A stretch of DNA of 64,000 bases. Source: Gossypium raimondii. Its lineage: Eukaryota; Streptophyta; Magnoliopsida; Malvales; Malvaceae. The position numbers and the translations under genes were made by a program. Under the pieces are notes generated by a model that made no database searches, was not told where the DNA came from, and worked only from the letters and a program-made list of their open reading frames with translations. Position 1 is the stretch's first letter, and every line of letters starts with the position of its first letter. The DNA is taken from NCBI RefSeq assembly GCF_025698545.1, contig NC_068575.1, positions 55,933,980-55,997,979 of the forward strand. The letters are read 5' to 3'. Positions 46,391-62,625 of this stretch are shown here, piece after piece.

Positions 46391-48976
46391 ATGGCGGAGG
46401 AAGTGAAGAAGCAAGCTGAAGCTGAAACGACGGCGGCTCCACCGCCGGCAGTGGAGGTTCCAAAAGCTGAATCTGAGGAAAAAACTGTATCTCCACCGCC
46501 AGCAGAGGAGAAACCTGAAGAGTCCAAAGCTCTTGTTGTAGTTGAGAGTAAGCTTGGCTGTTACCTCATTTCGCGCTTGTTCTACATATATAGTCTCAAC
46601 TTTCAACATGAAAATCATGAAAATTTATATGCTTTCTTTTAAGCATTTACTGGAAATTAACACTAGTCTGAGAATTTTCTTTTTTTTTTCGATTAATCAT
46701 TTTGTTCAGATTTTTTTCCTCATTCCAGATGGATTTATCTCTCTTTTTTGTTCTTCAGTGAAGTAATTTTTCATTTATGGTTTGCTGAAATTCTCTTTCA
46801 AATTTGTATAAGAAAATATTGATAGTTTCATATAATCAAAACTTCGATTTCGAGTTTCCATCCTTTTTTCAGTTAAAATTCATATAAAGCTGGTTTCTAG
46901 AATCTCTTAAATCAACTGATCTAAGGAAAACAGAGCTCAAGACAATTAGTATAAAACTTTACCTTTAATTGCTGTTTTAGTGCTATGTTCTTTTAGAATA
47001 CGATCAAATTTAACACAAAAGTGGGAAAATAAATAAAACGAACAGTTAAATTTCCTTTTCCAGATTTCTCTGTGCGAGTTTTCTCTGTCTTTCTTTTGTT
47101 TACCCTTTATTGAATGAACACTGAACAGTTACTTGATCGCTTTGTTGGACTGAGTAGAGTTTCAACTCCGAACCCTATTGAGAAAGACTAAACTTTTTGA
47201 ATGAAACAATTGAACTCTCTTTAAAAATGACCATTTGTCTATGCTGATGTATTTTAATTTCTTTTTCGTATCTGAAAATATATGTTAAACACGAAAACTT
47301 GCAGGAAAATAAAGAGTTAAAGTAAACTGTACTGGTTTTCCATGGGACCTTTTTCCTTTTTTTTTTCCTTTCTGAGCCATACCATTCCTTTACTTTTCTC
47401 TGTTTATCAAATTTGAAACATATCTTTACTCTGATGTGATGATACGTTTTATATTGTGAAGAATATTATCCGATTTAACACTGAAGATTCTACAAGAATA
47501 TGGTTAGGTTGGCAAGTTGCTATTGGTGATTTCTTTTTTTCGAAGGTGCTATTGTCGATTAGCTTAACACTATTTGTAGTTATTGCCCATCAATTATTGT
47601 CGTGGGCATCTAATAATATGATTATGGACCCCTTTTTTTTTCATTATTTTTAGGTGAAAGATTAAAGTTGCTTTGACAACAGGAATTGTACTGTTGCTAT
47701 ATCTTGTCTTATTAACTAGCTTTTAAGATTGAAAAAGAAGCTTCAATTATGGTATATCTTTTTTTATGAAGAATTAGTGTCATATTCTTCTGTATTGATA
47801 GAAATTCCAGGTAATCCTCAATTCGGTGCTAGTTTTTGTGCAAGTCTTACTACACCTGAATCTTATCAATGTACTTAAAGAACCGATTTGCGTAATTTTA
47901 TTTGTTTATGTAGTAAGTTAGATTGATCCAGACATACTATGAATTGAAGTGATTAGTCTTTTGTAATAACTTTAATATTTTACATGGGCTAATGACGTTT
48001 GTCATCATTAGTCATTGCTAAAAATTATTCTGGTGGTTTTAACATTATTTTCATTTTGACAGAGGCTCCAGAGCCTGAACCAAAGAAAATCTCAGGAGGA
48101 TCACATGATAGAGGTAAGTATGAAGTGATACTATCGCTTTATTATCATTAGATACTACTTGGTGATTTGATGAATGTATTTAAGATCTATGAAAGGAGGA
48201 GGTTTAAGATCTATTGCTTCTATTTTTTTAGATATTTCCCTTGCAGAGGTTGAAAAGGCAAAAAGGTTGTCATTCATCAAGGCATGGGAAGAAAGTGAAA
48301 AGACCAAAGCAGAGAATAAGTAAGGCCAAAAACCCCTTTCCATCTTTTCACAGAAGACTGAAGCTTACGAAATAGTTGTGTTCTCCACTAATTGTAGCTA
48401 TATACAAAATTTTCTTTATAGTTTACAATTTCCATGATCTTCTATGAAGAGGTTTATTGCTAAGTATTCTATCACTATGAAAGTTATCTTTATGGTTCTC
48501 ATGACCATCTGTGAGGAGTTTAACTGTTAAATAATCTATTGACTTAAAATCGATGAGCAGGTCCCAGAAAAAGCTCTCTGCTATTGTAGCATGGGAGAAC
48601 AGCAAGAAAGCATCTCTGGAAGCAAAACTGAAAAAAATTGAGGTAACTGGCTCTCTATTGCCTTTTTTTTGTGTGCGTGTGTGTGTGCATCCATGCTTTG
48701 CTTTTTATGATTTAAATCAATTTTACTTAGGGGGTCTGTTATCAATTGGTTTTAATTCTAACGAGGTGCAAATATTGGTAGGAACAATTGGAAAAGAAGA
48801 AAGCAGAATGTGCAGAGAAAATGAAAAACAAGGTAGCTTTGCTTCACAAGGAAGCAGAAGAAAAGAGGGCTATGGTTGAAGCCAAACGAGGAGAAGAGGT
48901 TCTCAAGGCGGAGGAAATGGCTGCAAAATACCGTGCAACCGGACAAACTCCAAAAAAGGTCCTTGGGTGTTTCTGA
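46391..48976 (+). CDS. remorin, group 1 type
   Basis: Remorins are plant plasma-membrane proteins that mark sterol-rich nanodomains and affect cell-to-cell movement and responses to microbes. Exons are 46391-46547, 48063-48113, 48232-48319, 48561-48642 and 48782-48976, giving 573 nt or 190 aa with clean GT-AG sites and matching phases. The N-terminal half is disordered, Pro/Glu/Ala-rich and likely phosphorylated (MAEEVKKQAEAETTAAPPPA). The C-terminal Remorin_C domain forms a coiled coil: AEVEKAKRLSFIKAWEESEK, KLSAIVAWENSKKASLEAKL, EQLEKKKAECAEKMKNKVAL. It ends KYRATGQTPKKVLGCF, the RemCA anchor whose Cys is the usual S-acylation site. Length matches potato REM1.3 (198 aa). Intron 1 is 1.5 kb, and intron 4 holds a short GT repeat (about 48670-48688). 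The gene looks intact. Confidence 0.95.
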
Positions 48977-50350: not shown

Positions 50351-55174
<4,824 letters not shown>

Positions 55175-56080
55175 ATCACAACCCTAAACTCCGAAAAAAC
55201 AGATTCGAAACCCTAGAAAACCGAAATCCGTACGCAACTACAAAAAAAAAAGAAGAAAGAAACAAAGCTAGGGTTTCTTCCAAAGGGGTAACGCCGTAAA
55301 TAGTGGCAAAACCGAGGGTCGTCCTAACAAAAAGAAAGAAACTAGTCTCTGGTAGCTCAAGGGGAAAAAAAAGAAGGTTAGATCATAAATTTGAGAGAAA
55401 ACCGAGGGTGCTATTACACAGATCTGGGTTTTTTTTTCAAAAAAAAAATGAACGATTTCTGGACAAGAAATCAAATGATTTTTTTTTTTTTTTGGTTCAA
55501 TGAGAAGAAATCAAATGATTTGGGTTTTGGGAGCGCAAAGGTTTTTATAAATGGCTTGTTTTTGGTGGTAAAGAAAAAAGAGTTAGATTTTAGAATGAAA
55601 ACAGAACGGGTTGGTTCATAGTCGTTCCTGAGCCGAGCTAGCGACGAAATTCAATGAAAATAAAATTAGGGCATCCAGATAGATAATTCATTTTTGTCCT
55701 TTTGTAAATTTTGATGAATGAGCCCGCTTGGCTTTTATATTTACGTATATTGCCCACAGCAACTAAACCACTTTTTGTTTTTATTAAGATATGAAACGGT
55801 TTTTTTTTTAAATAAATAAAATTAATTTATGCTGAATAAAATTATTAAATTTTAATCTATATATCTGAAAAAAACTATTATAAGTTAGTATTATTTAAAT
55901 TTAATTTTATCAATATTTATTTGAATAAAAATAAAAATGCGATTAATTCTTTTTATTTATGTTTTAGAAGAGATAAAGACAGTCTAACGAGGCTTGTAAG
56001 TATTCCCCCACCAAAGTGGGACACAAAAAGAATTAAATTAAATAGGCTTAACTTGCGATTTAGCTATCAAAAAATATCTA
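55175..56080. other. helicase leader/promoter and AT-rich spacer
   Basis: 55175-55300 is the probable 5' UTR of the helicase, with CCCTAGAAAACC-like sequence and A-rich runs. A poly-T/poly-A-rich segment follows to about 55500. From 55640 onward it is AT-rich spacer. No other gene was recognised. Confidence 0.45.
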
Positions 56081-56978
56081 CACTATGTTTGGTTGGGTGT
56101 AATGGATTAGCCATTACACCCCGATTCGGTGGCCCACCTAATACGCCGTTTGGTTCACCGTTTACTGATTCGGAGGTTTTGCTATTCCTTGCTATTCCCT
56201 CAGCAGCTGTAATAGGTATTCCGGGGTTTTAGTTTGTAATAGCTATTCACCGTTTTCTTCTTTAATTTTGAGACCAAAATAGCCTGCCTTCTTCTCCCCA
56301 AAAATTTCCCATCGATTTCATATCCTCAAATCAAGCCAAATCGATTCGGCTTCATCTTCTTCCAACCAAAGGGTTTCACCATTCTTCCGCTTCTTGCAGC
56401 GACTGAGAAACAGTAGCGGGAAGGGAGGTAATCTTTTTCTGCCCTCATCAAGCTTCATCCTCTCCGACGTTTCCCTTCCATTGATTGCAGAGGTAATCTT
56501 TTTACTTCTTTTCTTCATTGATTTTTCCTTCTTACGTTTGAGAACTTAAAACCGATTTCTGCCCTCAGCTCCATCTTCTCCTACGTTTTTGCTCTTCATT
56601 TTATCAGGAACGAAAAATGTCATCACTTTCACATATTTGAACTTCTAGCACCGCTTTTTCCTCTACTACCAAAGTGAGAATACCTTGTCTCCTTTCCTTT
56701 AATTTCTACGCTTGATCTTTATCTATGTTTCCCGATTATCCTAAATTTTAGTGTTTTTTAATTTATTTTGTTTAAAATTTCGATTTAGCTTCAATCTTTT
56801 CTTTTTCTATCTGTGTTTATTTCGTTGTAATATTAATAAATTTTATAATATTTTCTATTAATGCCACTATGCAGTATCAATTAAGCATTTTTTTACATTT
56901 ATTTTTAATTATAAATTTAGCGAATCATTTAATTTTGTTTAGAACTTTCGAGAAAGATTTTGATGAGGTGAAGAAACT

Positions 56979-57094
56979 ATGGCAAGCAATTCAGGAAGAG
57001 GATACCCTACAAATGGTTCCATCTATGTTTGTAATTTACCTGAGGGAACTGATGAAAGTATGTTAGCCGAGTATTTTCGAACCATTGGCTTCAG
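56979..57094 (+). pseudogene. TAF15-like RRM gene fragment (first exon)
   Basis: From an ATG the sequence reads MASNSGRGYPTNGSIYVCNL, then PEGTDESMLAEYFRTIGF, and then stops resembling the family. This is the start of plant TAF15/TAF2N-like proteins, in which an RRM with YVxNLP (RNP2) opens a protein that later has a RanBP2-type zinc finger. Only about 38 codons survive, so the RNP1 half and everything after are missing. The preceding 500 bp (56280-56970) look like a leader with a CT-rich start and intron-like sequence, probably captured with it. It cannot encode a full RRM. Confidence 0.7.
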
Positions 57095-57719
57095 AACTTG
57101 AACTTCTCCAGAAGTGCATAAGTAAAAGTTTAGAGTTTATGCAGTAGTTAACATTTAATTTGCAATAATTGTAAAAGTTTAGGGTTTTACTTGATCTCTT
57201 TAGTCAAAGAAGATAATGGACAAGAGGAGAAATAGTATGTTTCATTATCTTTTTTCGAGTTCTCATAGATTTCCAACATCATAAAGCTGTCATTGCTATC
57301 TTTTCTTTTTCGTGAATACATCAAATCAGAAGCTTGTAAGCAATATGAACCTGCAATTGTAATTTGTGTTTTTAGATGTATCTTGATGGTGTTTCATGTT
57401 TTCAGTAGGAAAAATAATGAAATTTCGTTTTCAAATATTGCTTCTATACTGCGGCTAGCATCCGAATCCTATGTTTTTGATTAATGTGATAAGTGATATT
57501 TATGTTTATTATATGTATATCTAGAGGGAGATTTGTTAATGTTTGCCGTGAAATTATATGATAATGTGGTAAGAAGGAAATTTTGTGAAAATATGTTGAA
57601 AACTAATGCTAGTTGTTTGAATGAATGAAGTCAAACAGTTATGCATTGAATATATATATGCATATAGCAGAGTTATGCATATGCATTAGATGTATGGTTT
57701 AGTTTCTTGTATTGCGCAG

Positions 57720-58431
57720 ATTCTTGGTTGCTTGACTTTGTTGCATTTTTCGGTGCAAGCAACTCGGATGAGACTGAATCAGTAATGAAGTTACTTTGGG
57801 ACTTAATTAATCCTGGAACTGACTCTAGTGTATGAATTTTAACTGATATTTTTATCTATATATTCTGTAATTTAAATTGGAGCCTAAAAGGATAGGTTTC
57901 CTTCTATGTCTCATCAGATTGAAAGGAAAGATTCATTAGCCGTTTTAACTGCCATGATATCCGGTTGGTCCTTTCTTCTTTCTACCATTGATGGGTGGAG
58001 GCTAAGTCACAAAAATTGGCAAGGGTGAGCCTTTTAATTAAAAAGTCCCATTTATTGTAAATTTTTAACAATTACAACCTCTAGATAGTTATCGTCTTTC
58101 GTTTTGTTTTCCATCTACAAACAAATTTGAAATGTCATTGATAGATCTGCAAATTTGGATGCAGGGCAATTACATACTTCTCCAACATATTAGACAGTAA
58201 TGATGAAGCACTATGTGCAGCAGCATGTGAGGCTCTTGCTTTAGTAGTTGAATCCAACTGTCTGGAGAAATTCTCAAGTAAAACCAAGGATTCAAACAAA
58301 GAATTTAAGGACAACATTATAAAGCAACTCGAAGCGGTTGTCGAAAGCAGCAATGAAAGAATTTCTAGTCAAGATCCAAGAACGGGTTCAATTACGCCTC
58401 ACCGCTTTAGATTTCCTAAAGGTATTGATTT
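57720..58431 (+). pseudogene. IFRD (interferon-related developmental regulator) gene fragment
   Basis: Three exons with good splice sites are present: 57720-57829 (SWLLDFVAFFGASNSDETES), 57918-58024 (RKDSLAVLTAMISGWSFLLS, then TIDGWRLSHKNWQG) and 58165-58431 (AITYFSNILDSNDEALCAAA, EALALVVESNCLEKFSSKT). They match the middle of plant IFRD/SAT32-like proteins, armadillo-like regulators linked to salt response. Phases 2/3 join as CAA GG|G GCA. The N-terminal third and the conserved IFRD C-terminal domain were not found. The exon reading frames are still open, so capture was fairly recent or the piece is still transcribed. It lies within the TIR element and cannot make a whole protein. Confidence 0.72.
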
Positions 58432-60000
58432 GACTTTGTTTTATGCATATATTTAATAGATTGTATCTTGAGCTGCCATAATAGTCTTAATAACTTTCAG
58501 GATGGGAAATGTGCAATCTCATGGATATTTTCATTGAAAAATTCATCTTTTGTCTTTGTATTGTTGATTTACTTTTCTAGGCTGGTTTTGTGTAGCTGAT
58601 CATTTACCTTAATTCCAGCAGTAAATAGGCTGATTTTCCAAGGTTTCTATTTCATATAAATGCACTTTGTAGGACTTCTTTGGCACATGAAATGACCATA
58701 TTAATTTTTTTTCACAGATTTTTCTCTCAAACCTTTCTAATTATTGTTGTTGTTGATATTCTGATAGACATTATTACTATTTACATTTTTTAAGCAAACC
58801 AATGTCAAGTATTGATTTTGAGTTTAGAAAAGCAAAGATACTCCACATCTATAACTGATGTAATTGATGAGCGTTAGATATAGGTATATACTTGACATAC
58901 CCTTGAGTGAATTCATCAATTTTATATTCTGATTTTGCTCCAGTAAATTTCATTAAGTTACCTTGTGCAAAAGATGAATTTGCCTCACCAACATTTGTCA
59001 AAGTCCTTGTGCATATTTGAGATGGTCTTAATTTGACAGAAAATGAAGTATAGTTTAACTCTCCTTGTTGTTTACTTGGCTTTTCTTAGCACTTGGCCGA
59101 TCTATGTGCAGGCATCCCAATATATAATATAAAATTCATCATGAGGCTTTATTCCAACAGCCATATTGTCTGTGGAAATCTCTCTCAAGTTATAATGAAC
59201 AAAAAAATAGAAGAAGAAATTCGTTCATATGATCATTTCTACAAAAGAAATTATAATCCAAATGTTGCACATCAAAGTTACCAAAAAACAACCTTCCAAT
59301 TCTCCATTTGATAAGTTGCACAGTAATAGGTCTCTGTTCTATGCTAAAAGCAATCCAATTTTTTCAGAATACTTGAAAAACAAACAAAACGGTAAAAGTA
59401 CTATAGAAGCCATTATATTAGGAGTTGCATTGTATTTTGCCCTTTCCACTGGAAAAATGAGTAAATTACTCTTTATACATTAAATCAAAAAGTAAATTAG
59501 TCTTTTTATTAATATATGAATATTATGTTTGGATATTATGACATGTAAACTAATGAAATTATGTAACTTTTTGTTAATATATGAATATTATGTTTGGATG
59601 TAAAATATAATTCTCAAGTTTTTATTACTTCTAATATTTTTGTTTTTATTGTAGAATAATTAAATTATTTGTTTCACTAATGATATTTTAGCACATTAAA
59701 TATGTATTGCGGTTTAAAAATAATAAAATATATTATATATTATTTTATAATATTATATATTATGATTTTAGTAAATTCATATAAGAATATTTAATATTAA
59801 GAATTTTATTAAATTATATATTTTAATTAAATTATATTTAATAATAATTATGTTAAAATATGAATAAATTATTTATTATTGATATTAATAATCTTATCAA
59901 AATTTAATAACAATAACAATAATCATTTACCTAAACACATTTTTGCTAAGGGTATTCTAGTCATTTCAATTTTTTCCCTTATGCTATTACACCTCCATTC
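58432..60000. other. interior of the Pack-type element downstream of IFRD exons
   Basis: 58432-59090 looks like continuing intron sequence. 59090-59480 has two open stretches (one reads HIVCGNLSQVIMNKKIEEEI) with no family I recognise. 59490-59930 is very AT-rich with near-repeats of TTAATATATGAATATTATG. Confidence 0.4.
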
Positions 60001-60125
60001 CATTCAACCAAACACAAGAATACTATTACGCCTCTATTCCATTACATTCAACCAAACAATTGAATTGCTATTACGCCTCTATTCCATTACGTCTCTATTC
60101 CATTACAGCGAACCAAACGTGCCCC

Positions 60126-61180
60126 TATTGTTTCACTTTGGTATTAAAATTTTTTTTTGTCTCAAATTGGTATCTAAAGTAGCAATTCCTTCTATTTACG
60201 GTCCATTTTGTATCGGATGTTGAAAAAATTATTAGGCAATTTTGACCAATGAAAAAGTGTTATGTGGCAATTAGATTTATTTAAAATAAAATACTAAATT
60301 TAAAATAAAAATATTTAATATTTAATATTATTTTGATCGATCATTGACCGACTGTTGATCGGTGTTGATTGATCGTTAATCAAATTGACTAACGGTGTTG
60401 ACCGTTTACGAGGCGCTATTAGCACAACCATTTGTCCTTTTTTTATTTTTAGTATTATATATTATATTGATTAAAAATATAAAAAAATCATGTATAGTAT
60501 ATATAAAAAGTTTAAAAATATTTTTTTATAAATTTATAAATATATAATTATAAATTTTAGAAAGTGAAAATAATATATAAATATTATAAAATTAAAAAAC
60601 TTAAAAATTTAAATACCTTTTAGAATTTTAGAATTATATATTTTAGAATTTTATAAAATATTTATTTTTATTTTTACAATTTTATATTTGTTGTAATAAT
60701 ATTATTAATTTCAACTAATTTCTTTTCAATTATCATACTTTTGTGAATTTTATTTTTATAATTTTATAATTTATATGTTTTTCTCTAGATTTTATATTTT
60801 TTTTGAATTTTTTATATTTTTAATGTGTATATACATTTTATAAAATAAATTATTTGTAACCATAAGGTTGGGGGTTTGATCTCACCTAACGGAATGAACC
60901 ACATTTCATGACTAGCCATTTACCTCTCTGGAGAGCACTCGTGATGAGGGGATTAGTCATTATTACCTGCAATGGACACCTCAATTTCGACCAAAAAAAG
61001 AAAATATTTGTTTTTTTACGTAAAAACATCATGTGGCGCTTTGTAATTGACTATAAAATTATTATTTTTAACATCTGTCAGAAAATGGATTAAAAAATAT
61101 AACAAAAGTATATTTTAAGTACAAAATTGAAATTTTAATTGTACTCTACGTACTAAATTGAAATAAAAAATAAAAAATGA
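60126..61180. mobile_element. AT-rich repeat adjoining the Pack-type element
   Basis: The left part has TTTGGTATTAAAATTTT and TCTCAAATTGGTATCTAAAG. The right part, read in reverse, has AATTTAGTACGTAGAG and TCAATTTTGTACTTAAA, a weak inverted match. GTTGATTGATCG-type motifs at 60340-60410 resemble the centre of the 32.3 kb foldback. The boundaries are uncertain. Confidence 0.35.
60850..61012 (+). repeat. probable tRNA-derived SINE
   Basis: A B-box-like GGTTTGATCTC (about 60873) follows TAACCATAAGGTTGGGG. A GC-richer body (CTCTCTGGAGAGCACTCGTG, TACCTGCAATGGACACCTC) then ends TTCGACCAAAAAAAG. This shape of B box, body and A-rich tail fits a plant SINE. The A box is not clear. Confidence 0.45.
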
Positions 61181-61686: not shown

Positions 61687-62625
61687 GGCTAGTTTGGATG
61701 GGCGGTGTGTTTAGCTCCGGTGAGGTTAAAAACAGCGGTGGCGGTGAGATTAGGTCTTGTAATGTGAGATTGGATAATGTAGCGGTGAGATTAGAAACAT
61801 CGATTGGAGTGTGTGTTTGGATTCAAACGCAATTTGTAAGCGTGAGTGAAAATAGAAAATGACTTTTAAGGATATTAGATTAAAATGATATATCATAGAA
61901 GTTTTAAAATTATTTAACAATTACAAAATTAATAAATTATTAAAATTATTATTAAATATATTTTAATAAAATATATAATTTAATAAAATATATTGAATTT
62001 ACAAAAATTCAATCACACTTAAAAATTACATGAAAATAACAACTTAAATATTATTTTTAAAACAAAAAAGTTTGCTTAAATAATCCAATTAAATTATTAT
62101 CTCGATTAAAAACAAATCATTCCTCTATGAAACAGGAAACGAAGCAAAAGAGAGTTACGATCTTCCTAAATTTCACTTTCAATGAAGTTGAACTAAATTT
62201 AGTTACTTAATTCATCATTCTACATATCTTTTAAGCAGAAACAAAACAAAAAAAAATCATATATCTATCTATAAACTTACTGTGTAAGCGAGCAAACAGA
62301 GGTTACAGAGCAAACCAAGGGGAAGGGGAAAGGGAAGGGGAAGGGGAAGGGGAAAGGGGAGAAGAAGGGTAACCAAAGATCAGAAGAAACAAAAGAGGAA
62401 AAGAAACAAAAGAAATAATATGGGTAAAAGAGGAAAAGAAAAAGCAACTGGAGTTGCTAAATTTTTACCGGACCAACAATCTCCAGTTGATTTGGGGATG
62501 ACCATGCAGTGGAGGTCGCTTCTCACCGGACTGGCATCTTGAACCAAAGGGTGACCAAGCTGATTCTTGCCATTTCCCCACCAATCGCACCTCACTGGTA
62601 TGCAATGACAAACCAAAGGAGCCCT
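61687..62625. mobile_element. Harbinger-like non-autonomous element with TAA target duplication
   Basis: The left end is TAA-GGGCTAGTTTGGATG. The right end is CAAACCAAAGGAGCCC-TAA. The terminal repeats GGGCTAGTTTGG and GGGCTCCTTTGG match at 9-10 of 12 bases and are flanked by TAA on both sides, as in PIF/Harbinger/Tourist elements. The interior has GGTGAGATTA repeats on the left, a G-rich tract at 62318-62369 and a GC-rich right part. No transposase was seen. Confidence 0.65.
62318..62369 (+). repeat. GGGGAA repeat with G-quadruplex potential
   Basis: At least seven runs of three or four G separated by AA or AAA (AAGGGGAAGGGGAAAGGG and so on) fit the four-run rule for intramolecular G-quadruplexes many times over. 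It lies within the Harbinger-like element. Confidence 0.8.

Follow-up and report, generated by a model that had tools for sequence, protein, structure and literature searches.

Rice Pack-MULEs carry gene fragments between inverted ends, belong to the Mutator superfamily and generate 9-11 bp target duplications. Within PIF/Harbinger, both Pack-PIF elements and Pack elements holding several loci have been published; in the parts covered of a maize study (PMC8903248), Zm-Pack-PIF cluster #18 has PIF/Harbinger ends, is non-autonomous and multicopy and has a second gene fragment in a subgroup, while maize Pack elements average 535 bp, with gene pieces of 163 bp and 58 bp. Capture of exons together with introns by PIF elements has also been published for grapevine, where Pifvine-3 holds such DNA in the long 5' region of a transposase-bearing family, some of it common to several copies (PMC2528002, sections covered). 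Animal Pack-TIRs, treated under the FoSTeST model, are multicopy captures with short microhomology at their breakpoints, and the parts covered of that work (PMC8277862) describe no capture of a second gene inside a first. For the capture of unlinked genes by cut-and-paste transposons, part of a further source allows that an undiscovered mechanism may exist (PMC13317346).

The window analysed here, a stretch of 64,000 nucleotides (C11:55933980-55997979), contains a full non-autonomous DNA transposon of 4 kb (Table 1). Like the rice elements it has gene fragments between inverted ends, but its target duplication is 3 bp. It differs from cluster #18 in carrying about 2 kb from two genes, with introns kept and the second capture lying within the first, and from Pifvine-3 in that no transposase (DDE_Tnp_4; profile PF13359, searched genome-wide) was found inside it among the matches listed. 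As Pack-PIFs and multi-gene capture are in print, the element type is known and the window family is a new, well-preserved example; the original prediction that double capture between Harbinger-like ends would be less usual thus holds in part, given the Pack-PIF and multi-locus elements in the parts covered of PMC8903248. No comparable family in Gossypium was found in the open-licence literature by titles and abstract beginnings.

The element is very probably (about 0.92) a Pack-type PIF/Harbinger element (Pack-PIF), non-autonomous and with host-gene DNA in place of its own genes, that would be moved by full elements with the same ends. This assignment is based on its ends, its duplications and a positional association with Harbinger transposases.

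Table 1. Features of the element and its borders (window positions; exon limits set by eye on splice-like signals).
Feature	Position	Strand	Remark
Left target-site duplication CTA	56078..56080	.	Identical CTA at 60125-60127
Element, complete, non-autonomous (very probably Pack-type PIF/Harbinger)	56081..60124	+	Ends shared by three more full copies, with matching 3-bp duplications
Left terminal inverted repeat CACTATGTTTGGTTGGGTGTAATGG	56081..56105	+	
Backbone, 5' leader region, ends ...TTTTATCAG / GAACGAAAAATG	56081..56617	+	
TAF15-like capture, left part (5' region and first exon)	56618..57091	+	Likely parent C1:31.06 Mb (L029 4476-4987), 4.5% substitutions
TAF15-like exon 1, 40-codon open frame	56979..57101	+	TGA at 57099-57101, <=10 bases from fusion
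IFRD capture, upstream part	57090..57705	+	Likely parent C13:4.65 Mb, 3.7% substitutions
Internal IFRD junction	57701..57705	+	~990 bp of parent absent, 5-bp microhomology AGTTT
IFRD capture, second part, three exons with introns	57701..58514	+	3.9% substitutions
IFRD exon A	57720..57829	+	One base missing, frame shifted in window copy
IFRD exon B	57918..58024	+	
IFRD exon C, open frame	58165..58421	+	PF05004 match
TAF15-like capture, right remnant of older capture	58515..58605	+	
Backbone, 3' part	58602..60124	+	Common to elements with other cargo
Right terminal inverted repeat CCATTACAGCGAACCAAACGTGCCC	60100..60124	+	
Right target-site duplication CTA	60125..60127	.	Pairs with left CTA

Comparison with the genome (751 Mb, 281 contigs) identified the further same-ended copies that the original prediction had proposed to look for. 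Three were full-length with common limits: C2:36513149-36517223 (95%), C1:45405879-45410000 (93%) and C10:20336790-20341063 (94% and 91%), the last split into two overlapping alignments by a tandem duplication of its IFRD part. The four full copies lie on four chromosomes, each has its own perfect duplication and their flanks differ past the duplications; the element moves as a unit. With these copies, and the matching duplications found in eight of eight two-ended elements (see below), the proposal of a single element between inverted ends was confirmed, its right end lying one base beyond the predicted 60123. A copy on C12 (L046) was represented by its left half alone within the sequence compared; its leader contains a 3.3-kb insertion (L046 4584-7895) with an 11-bp overlap at the insertion ends, perhaps Mutator-like.

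Backbone, TAF15 and IFRD pieces together account for the whole window element. The TAF15-like cargo is closest to a gene on C1 (L029), as a paralogue 86 kb from it (L030) differs from window 56618-57091 by 13.4% substitutions versus 4.5%. Taken alone, the 40-residue frame in the window scored 18.4 bits against RRM_1, under the Pfam cut-off of 20.7, while the joined exons 1 and 2 of the parent reached 39.8 bits and matched solved EWS, TAF15 and FUS chains (RNA-binding domains), in agreement with the TAF15-like first exon proposed earlier. Across the four copies, the TAF15 piece differs from its parent by 3.4-4.5% substitutions, much like the IFRD piece (2.9-4.8%). An older age for the TAF15 capture, read from its 88% identity to the parent, was rejected, since gaps and not substitutions produce that value.

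The IFRD cargo comprises the three exons with introns that had been predicted. Exon C matched PF05004 with 31.3 bits (cut-off 25); exons A and B were identified through C13, whose matching exons also matched three IFRD paralogues (tblastn), and the exon A copy of a sister element scored 25.3 bits, barely above the same cut-off. The C13 parent has diverged from three other IFRD genes to which it is related, and its exons continue past the captured region. The IFRD-derived DNA starts near 57090, upstream of the 57720 first proposed, and the parental gap at the internal junction, which includes one exon, had been overlooked. The general layout, TAF15 on the left followed by IFRD, was read correctly, without the second TAF15 piece at 58515-58605. 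Overall, introns kept and likely parents on C1 (TAF15-like) and C13 (IFRD), as judged by sequence similarity, bear out that two unrelated genes were captured as DNA, both in the same orientation. In the alignment to the parents, the matches outside the captured pieces were scattered, weak and repeat-like (66-82%, 55-438 bp), with none beside the element.

Related elements with other cargo bear on the order of the captures. TAF15-only elements on C4 (L044), C7 (L045) and C8 (L031) carry the stretch of the parent from L029 4476 to 6340 (92-97%), with a 70-bp deletion inside the piece and, in L045, also a small duplication. The outer TAF15 limits of the window element are identical to theirs, and IFRD lies between 57091 and 58515. 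The simplest reading of this nesting is that TAF15 came first and that IFRD then replaced the middle of a 1.86-kb capture, which would explain why TAF15 flanks IFRD on both sides. The capture order was not resolved by a tree built on the 333 bp that 12 elements have in common. Elements on C3, C5 and C8 (L025-L027) retain IFRD together with the right TAF15 remnant but lack the left TAF15 piece. In two others, on C5 and C9 (L028, L034), part of IFRD and the right TAF15 remnant are accompanied by an EXO1-like first exon, which the original prediction had missed. It stands in place of the left part (L028 1386-1712, L034 1456-1731) and matched XPG_N with 43 bits in each element, L028 also matching solved exonuclease 1. 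The best matches of this piece outside the two elements were at C10:2.58 Mb (97-98%), the likely location of its parent. One element can therefore combine DNA from three host genes that lie on three different chromosomes.

Other inserts occur behind the same leader. Related elements (L038-L043) share the leader and, of the TAF15 piece, no more than the initial 185 bp (80-83% to the window), after which other sequence follows, and a different insert (L017 1161-1960; related inserts in L014 and L020) holds a frame with MGEENKK. The TAF15 piece and this insert begin at one leader position; the best hits of the insert outside elements (69% across some 430 bp, 83% across 82 bp) gave no convincing parent. 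That a start codon behind the leader always opens the cargo became less likely in view of L015: the sequence following its leader recurs within 150 bp after 19 of the 77 leaders (L015 itself counted) and so looks native. A family scan of ten frames gave no family for L041, weak matches only for L038 and L017, and no family above the cut-off for the TAF15 exon-2 and zinc-finger frames of L045 and L031.

Four of the five junctions, read by eye and with no chance level computed for microhomology lengths, showed microhomology: TG (2 bp) between leader and TAF15, TT (2 bp) between TAF15 and IFRD, AGTTT (5 bp) at the internal IFRD deletion and ATTT (4 bp) between TAF15 and backbone. At the IFRD/TAF15 junction there was no clear overlap and one base was unexplained. 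Animal Pack-TIRs have similar microhomology lengths at breakpoints (median 2 bp; PMC8277862, parts covered). No match to the element backbone was found in the parent loci (L029 and L030 on C1, L032 and L033). The microhomology and the lack of backbone in the C1 and C13 parent loci suggest that capture occurred when a break or gap within the element was repaired and the template switched to unlinked genes. In such a sequence of events, a 1.86-kb stretch of the TAF15-like gene on C1 would have entered behind the leader of the element, IFRD DNA from C13 would have replaced the middle of that piece, and the double-capture element would have spread via transposition; derivatives would then have lost the left TAF15 part, one group having the C10 EXO1-like first exon.

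A fusion of two neighbouring TAF15-type elements flanking IFRD, with the inner ends lost and the outer ends mobile together, would yield the same layout of left TAF15, IFRD and right TAF15. This model comes from PMC8903248, which in the parts covered favours it for Pack-TYPE elements, maize Pack-PIFs included. It is unlikely here but keeps real weight: the 17 kb around the C13 parent contained no backbone match, that parent still has exons past the captured part, and the model needs a since-lost haplotype as well as a second such event for EXO1. Stages resembling before, between and after survive in one genome, the step-by-step record is unusually clear, and the likely parents and readable junctions make rival capture models testable on one family.

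In the alignment of the four full copies, differences from the consensus per 100 columns reached 28.5 near CHG and 28.1 near CG sites (within 2 bases of the site), compared to 7.8 elsewhere. C-to-T changes were raised at CG and CHG sites, as expected from the decay of methylated cytosines; transversions were raised too (41 of 610 columns near CHG, 13 of 263 near CG and 58 of 3236 elsewhere), and likewise indels. Ten sequences of IFRD exon C showed small patchy differences at CG and CHG sites, with mostly agreement between the patches. Such differences span window 56081-60124 and the copies L010-L012, L025-L028 and L034. Read or polishing errors at methylated cytosines may lie partly behind the differences between copies, and the base missing from exon A may be an assembly error. 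As the differences cluster at CG and CHG sites and may in part be assembly errors, the frameshifts are doubtful and the ages, which may be overestimated, uncertain.

The original prediction had further proposed that the element's own leader and open exons could allow a chimeric transcript. The leader has splice-like signals, is common to other elements, and exon C is indeed open in the window copy, but the TAF15 frame meets its TGA just beyond the fusion and the exon A frame is shifted, so that a chimeric transcript with a host function is improbable. A wider reading, doubtful on present evidence, is that a PIF/Harbinger lineage keeps its own transposon-gene leader, and that recurrent template switching places successive host first exons behind this leader and within each other, TAF15, IFRD and EXO1-like pieces being gathered in turn in a putative mobile, leader-driven exon-trial cassette.

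Concerning the superfamily, the element has the short terminal inverted repeats of PIF/Harbinger (24 bases, 88% complementary; 56087-56110 and 60095-60118), the two ends agreeing at no more than one or two of their outer six bases. The left 21-base end occurred 524 times in the genome (<=2 mismatches) versus 2 for the reversed control, and the right end, counted only as exact matches with TWA directly behind them, 191 times versus 0; the ends are not a product of chance. Pairing of the first 100 listed left with the first 100 listed right ends gave 20 same-strand pairs within 20 kb (one left end used twice), 17 of them 3.1-5.4 kb apart. A scan for duplications across loci L006-L046 (<=4 substitutions in the left end, <=3 in the right) found the left end in 19 rows (L018 and L046 being one place) and the right end too in 8. 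All eight two-ended elements had matching 3-bp duplications, the length typical of PIF/Harbinger, where TWA is usual: four were strictly TWA (TTA three times, TAA) and the remainder were CTA (window copy), TGA and TAG twice.

The profile of the Harbinger transposase (DDE_Tnp_4, PF13359) had 168 matches genome-wide, of which the 149 listed on 13 main contigs entered the association tests. Within 6 kb of listed ends, the transposase lay inside and on the same strand four times and in other arrangements never (shuffle mean 0.13, maximum 2, 500 shuffles); within 20 kb the association was looser (6 inside and same strand versus 3 otherwise). The leader pattern CATTTTATCAGGAACGAAAA occurred at 77 places versus 28 in the reversed control, and at seven of the 77 a PF13359 match lay 3.2-4.6 kb downstream on the same strand; within 8 kb the three other arrangements gave none, and 0.06 were expected from shuffles. 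On C1, genome coordinates line up a leader (16654350), a transposase (16658598) and a right end (16662293). The link is positional, transposase and both ends never falling within one sequence read. Together with the ends and the 3-bp duplications, it upholds the predicted Pack-type element with Harbinger-like ends. The transposase was most likely supplied by full PIF/Harbinger elements that share these ends, and the host-gene DNA with parents elsewhere, the unit movement and the absence of DDE_Tnp_4 among the matches listed inside are features of Pack-TYPE elements.

CACTA elements also make 3-bp duplications, as found at the window copy, whose left end reads CACTATG. Membership of this or another superfamily is nevertheless very improbable: the other three full copies and about three quarters of 100 listed left ends (524 in all) begin CACCATG, the right end (GGGCACGTTTGGTTCGCTGTAATGG when reversed) reads GGGCACG, so that CACTA or CACTG is not present at both ends, the duplications lean towards TWA and a Harbinger transposase is associated. 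A Pack-MULE was also rejected, the duplications being 3 bp, with flanks differing beyond, and not 9-11 bp. Lastly, a chance juxtaposition of independent repeats around a degenerate TAF15-IFRD pseudogene region, with gene pieces continuing outside the repeats, is practically untenable; both pieces do resemble fragments of genes, and short repeats abound in the window, but four copies share the same limits with their own target duplications.

Elsewhere in the window, an exon of a DEAD-box helicase (PF00270) lies at 53102-53356 on the minus strand, within 53102-55174. The frame upstream of it starts at 55174 (minus strand), 907 bp from the left end of the element and pointing away, and was taken to be of the same gene. 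An N-terminal remorin exon (PF03766) was found at 46391-46642, and GGCTAGTTTGGATGGGCGGTG at 61687-61710 looks like the terminus of a further small transposon.
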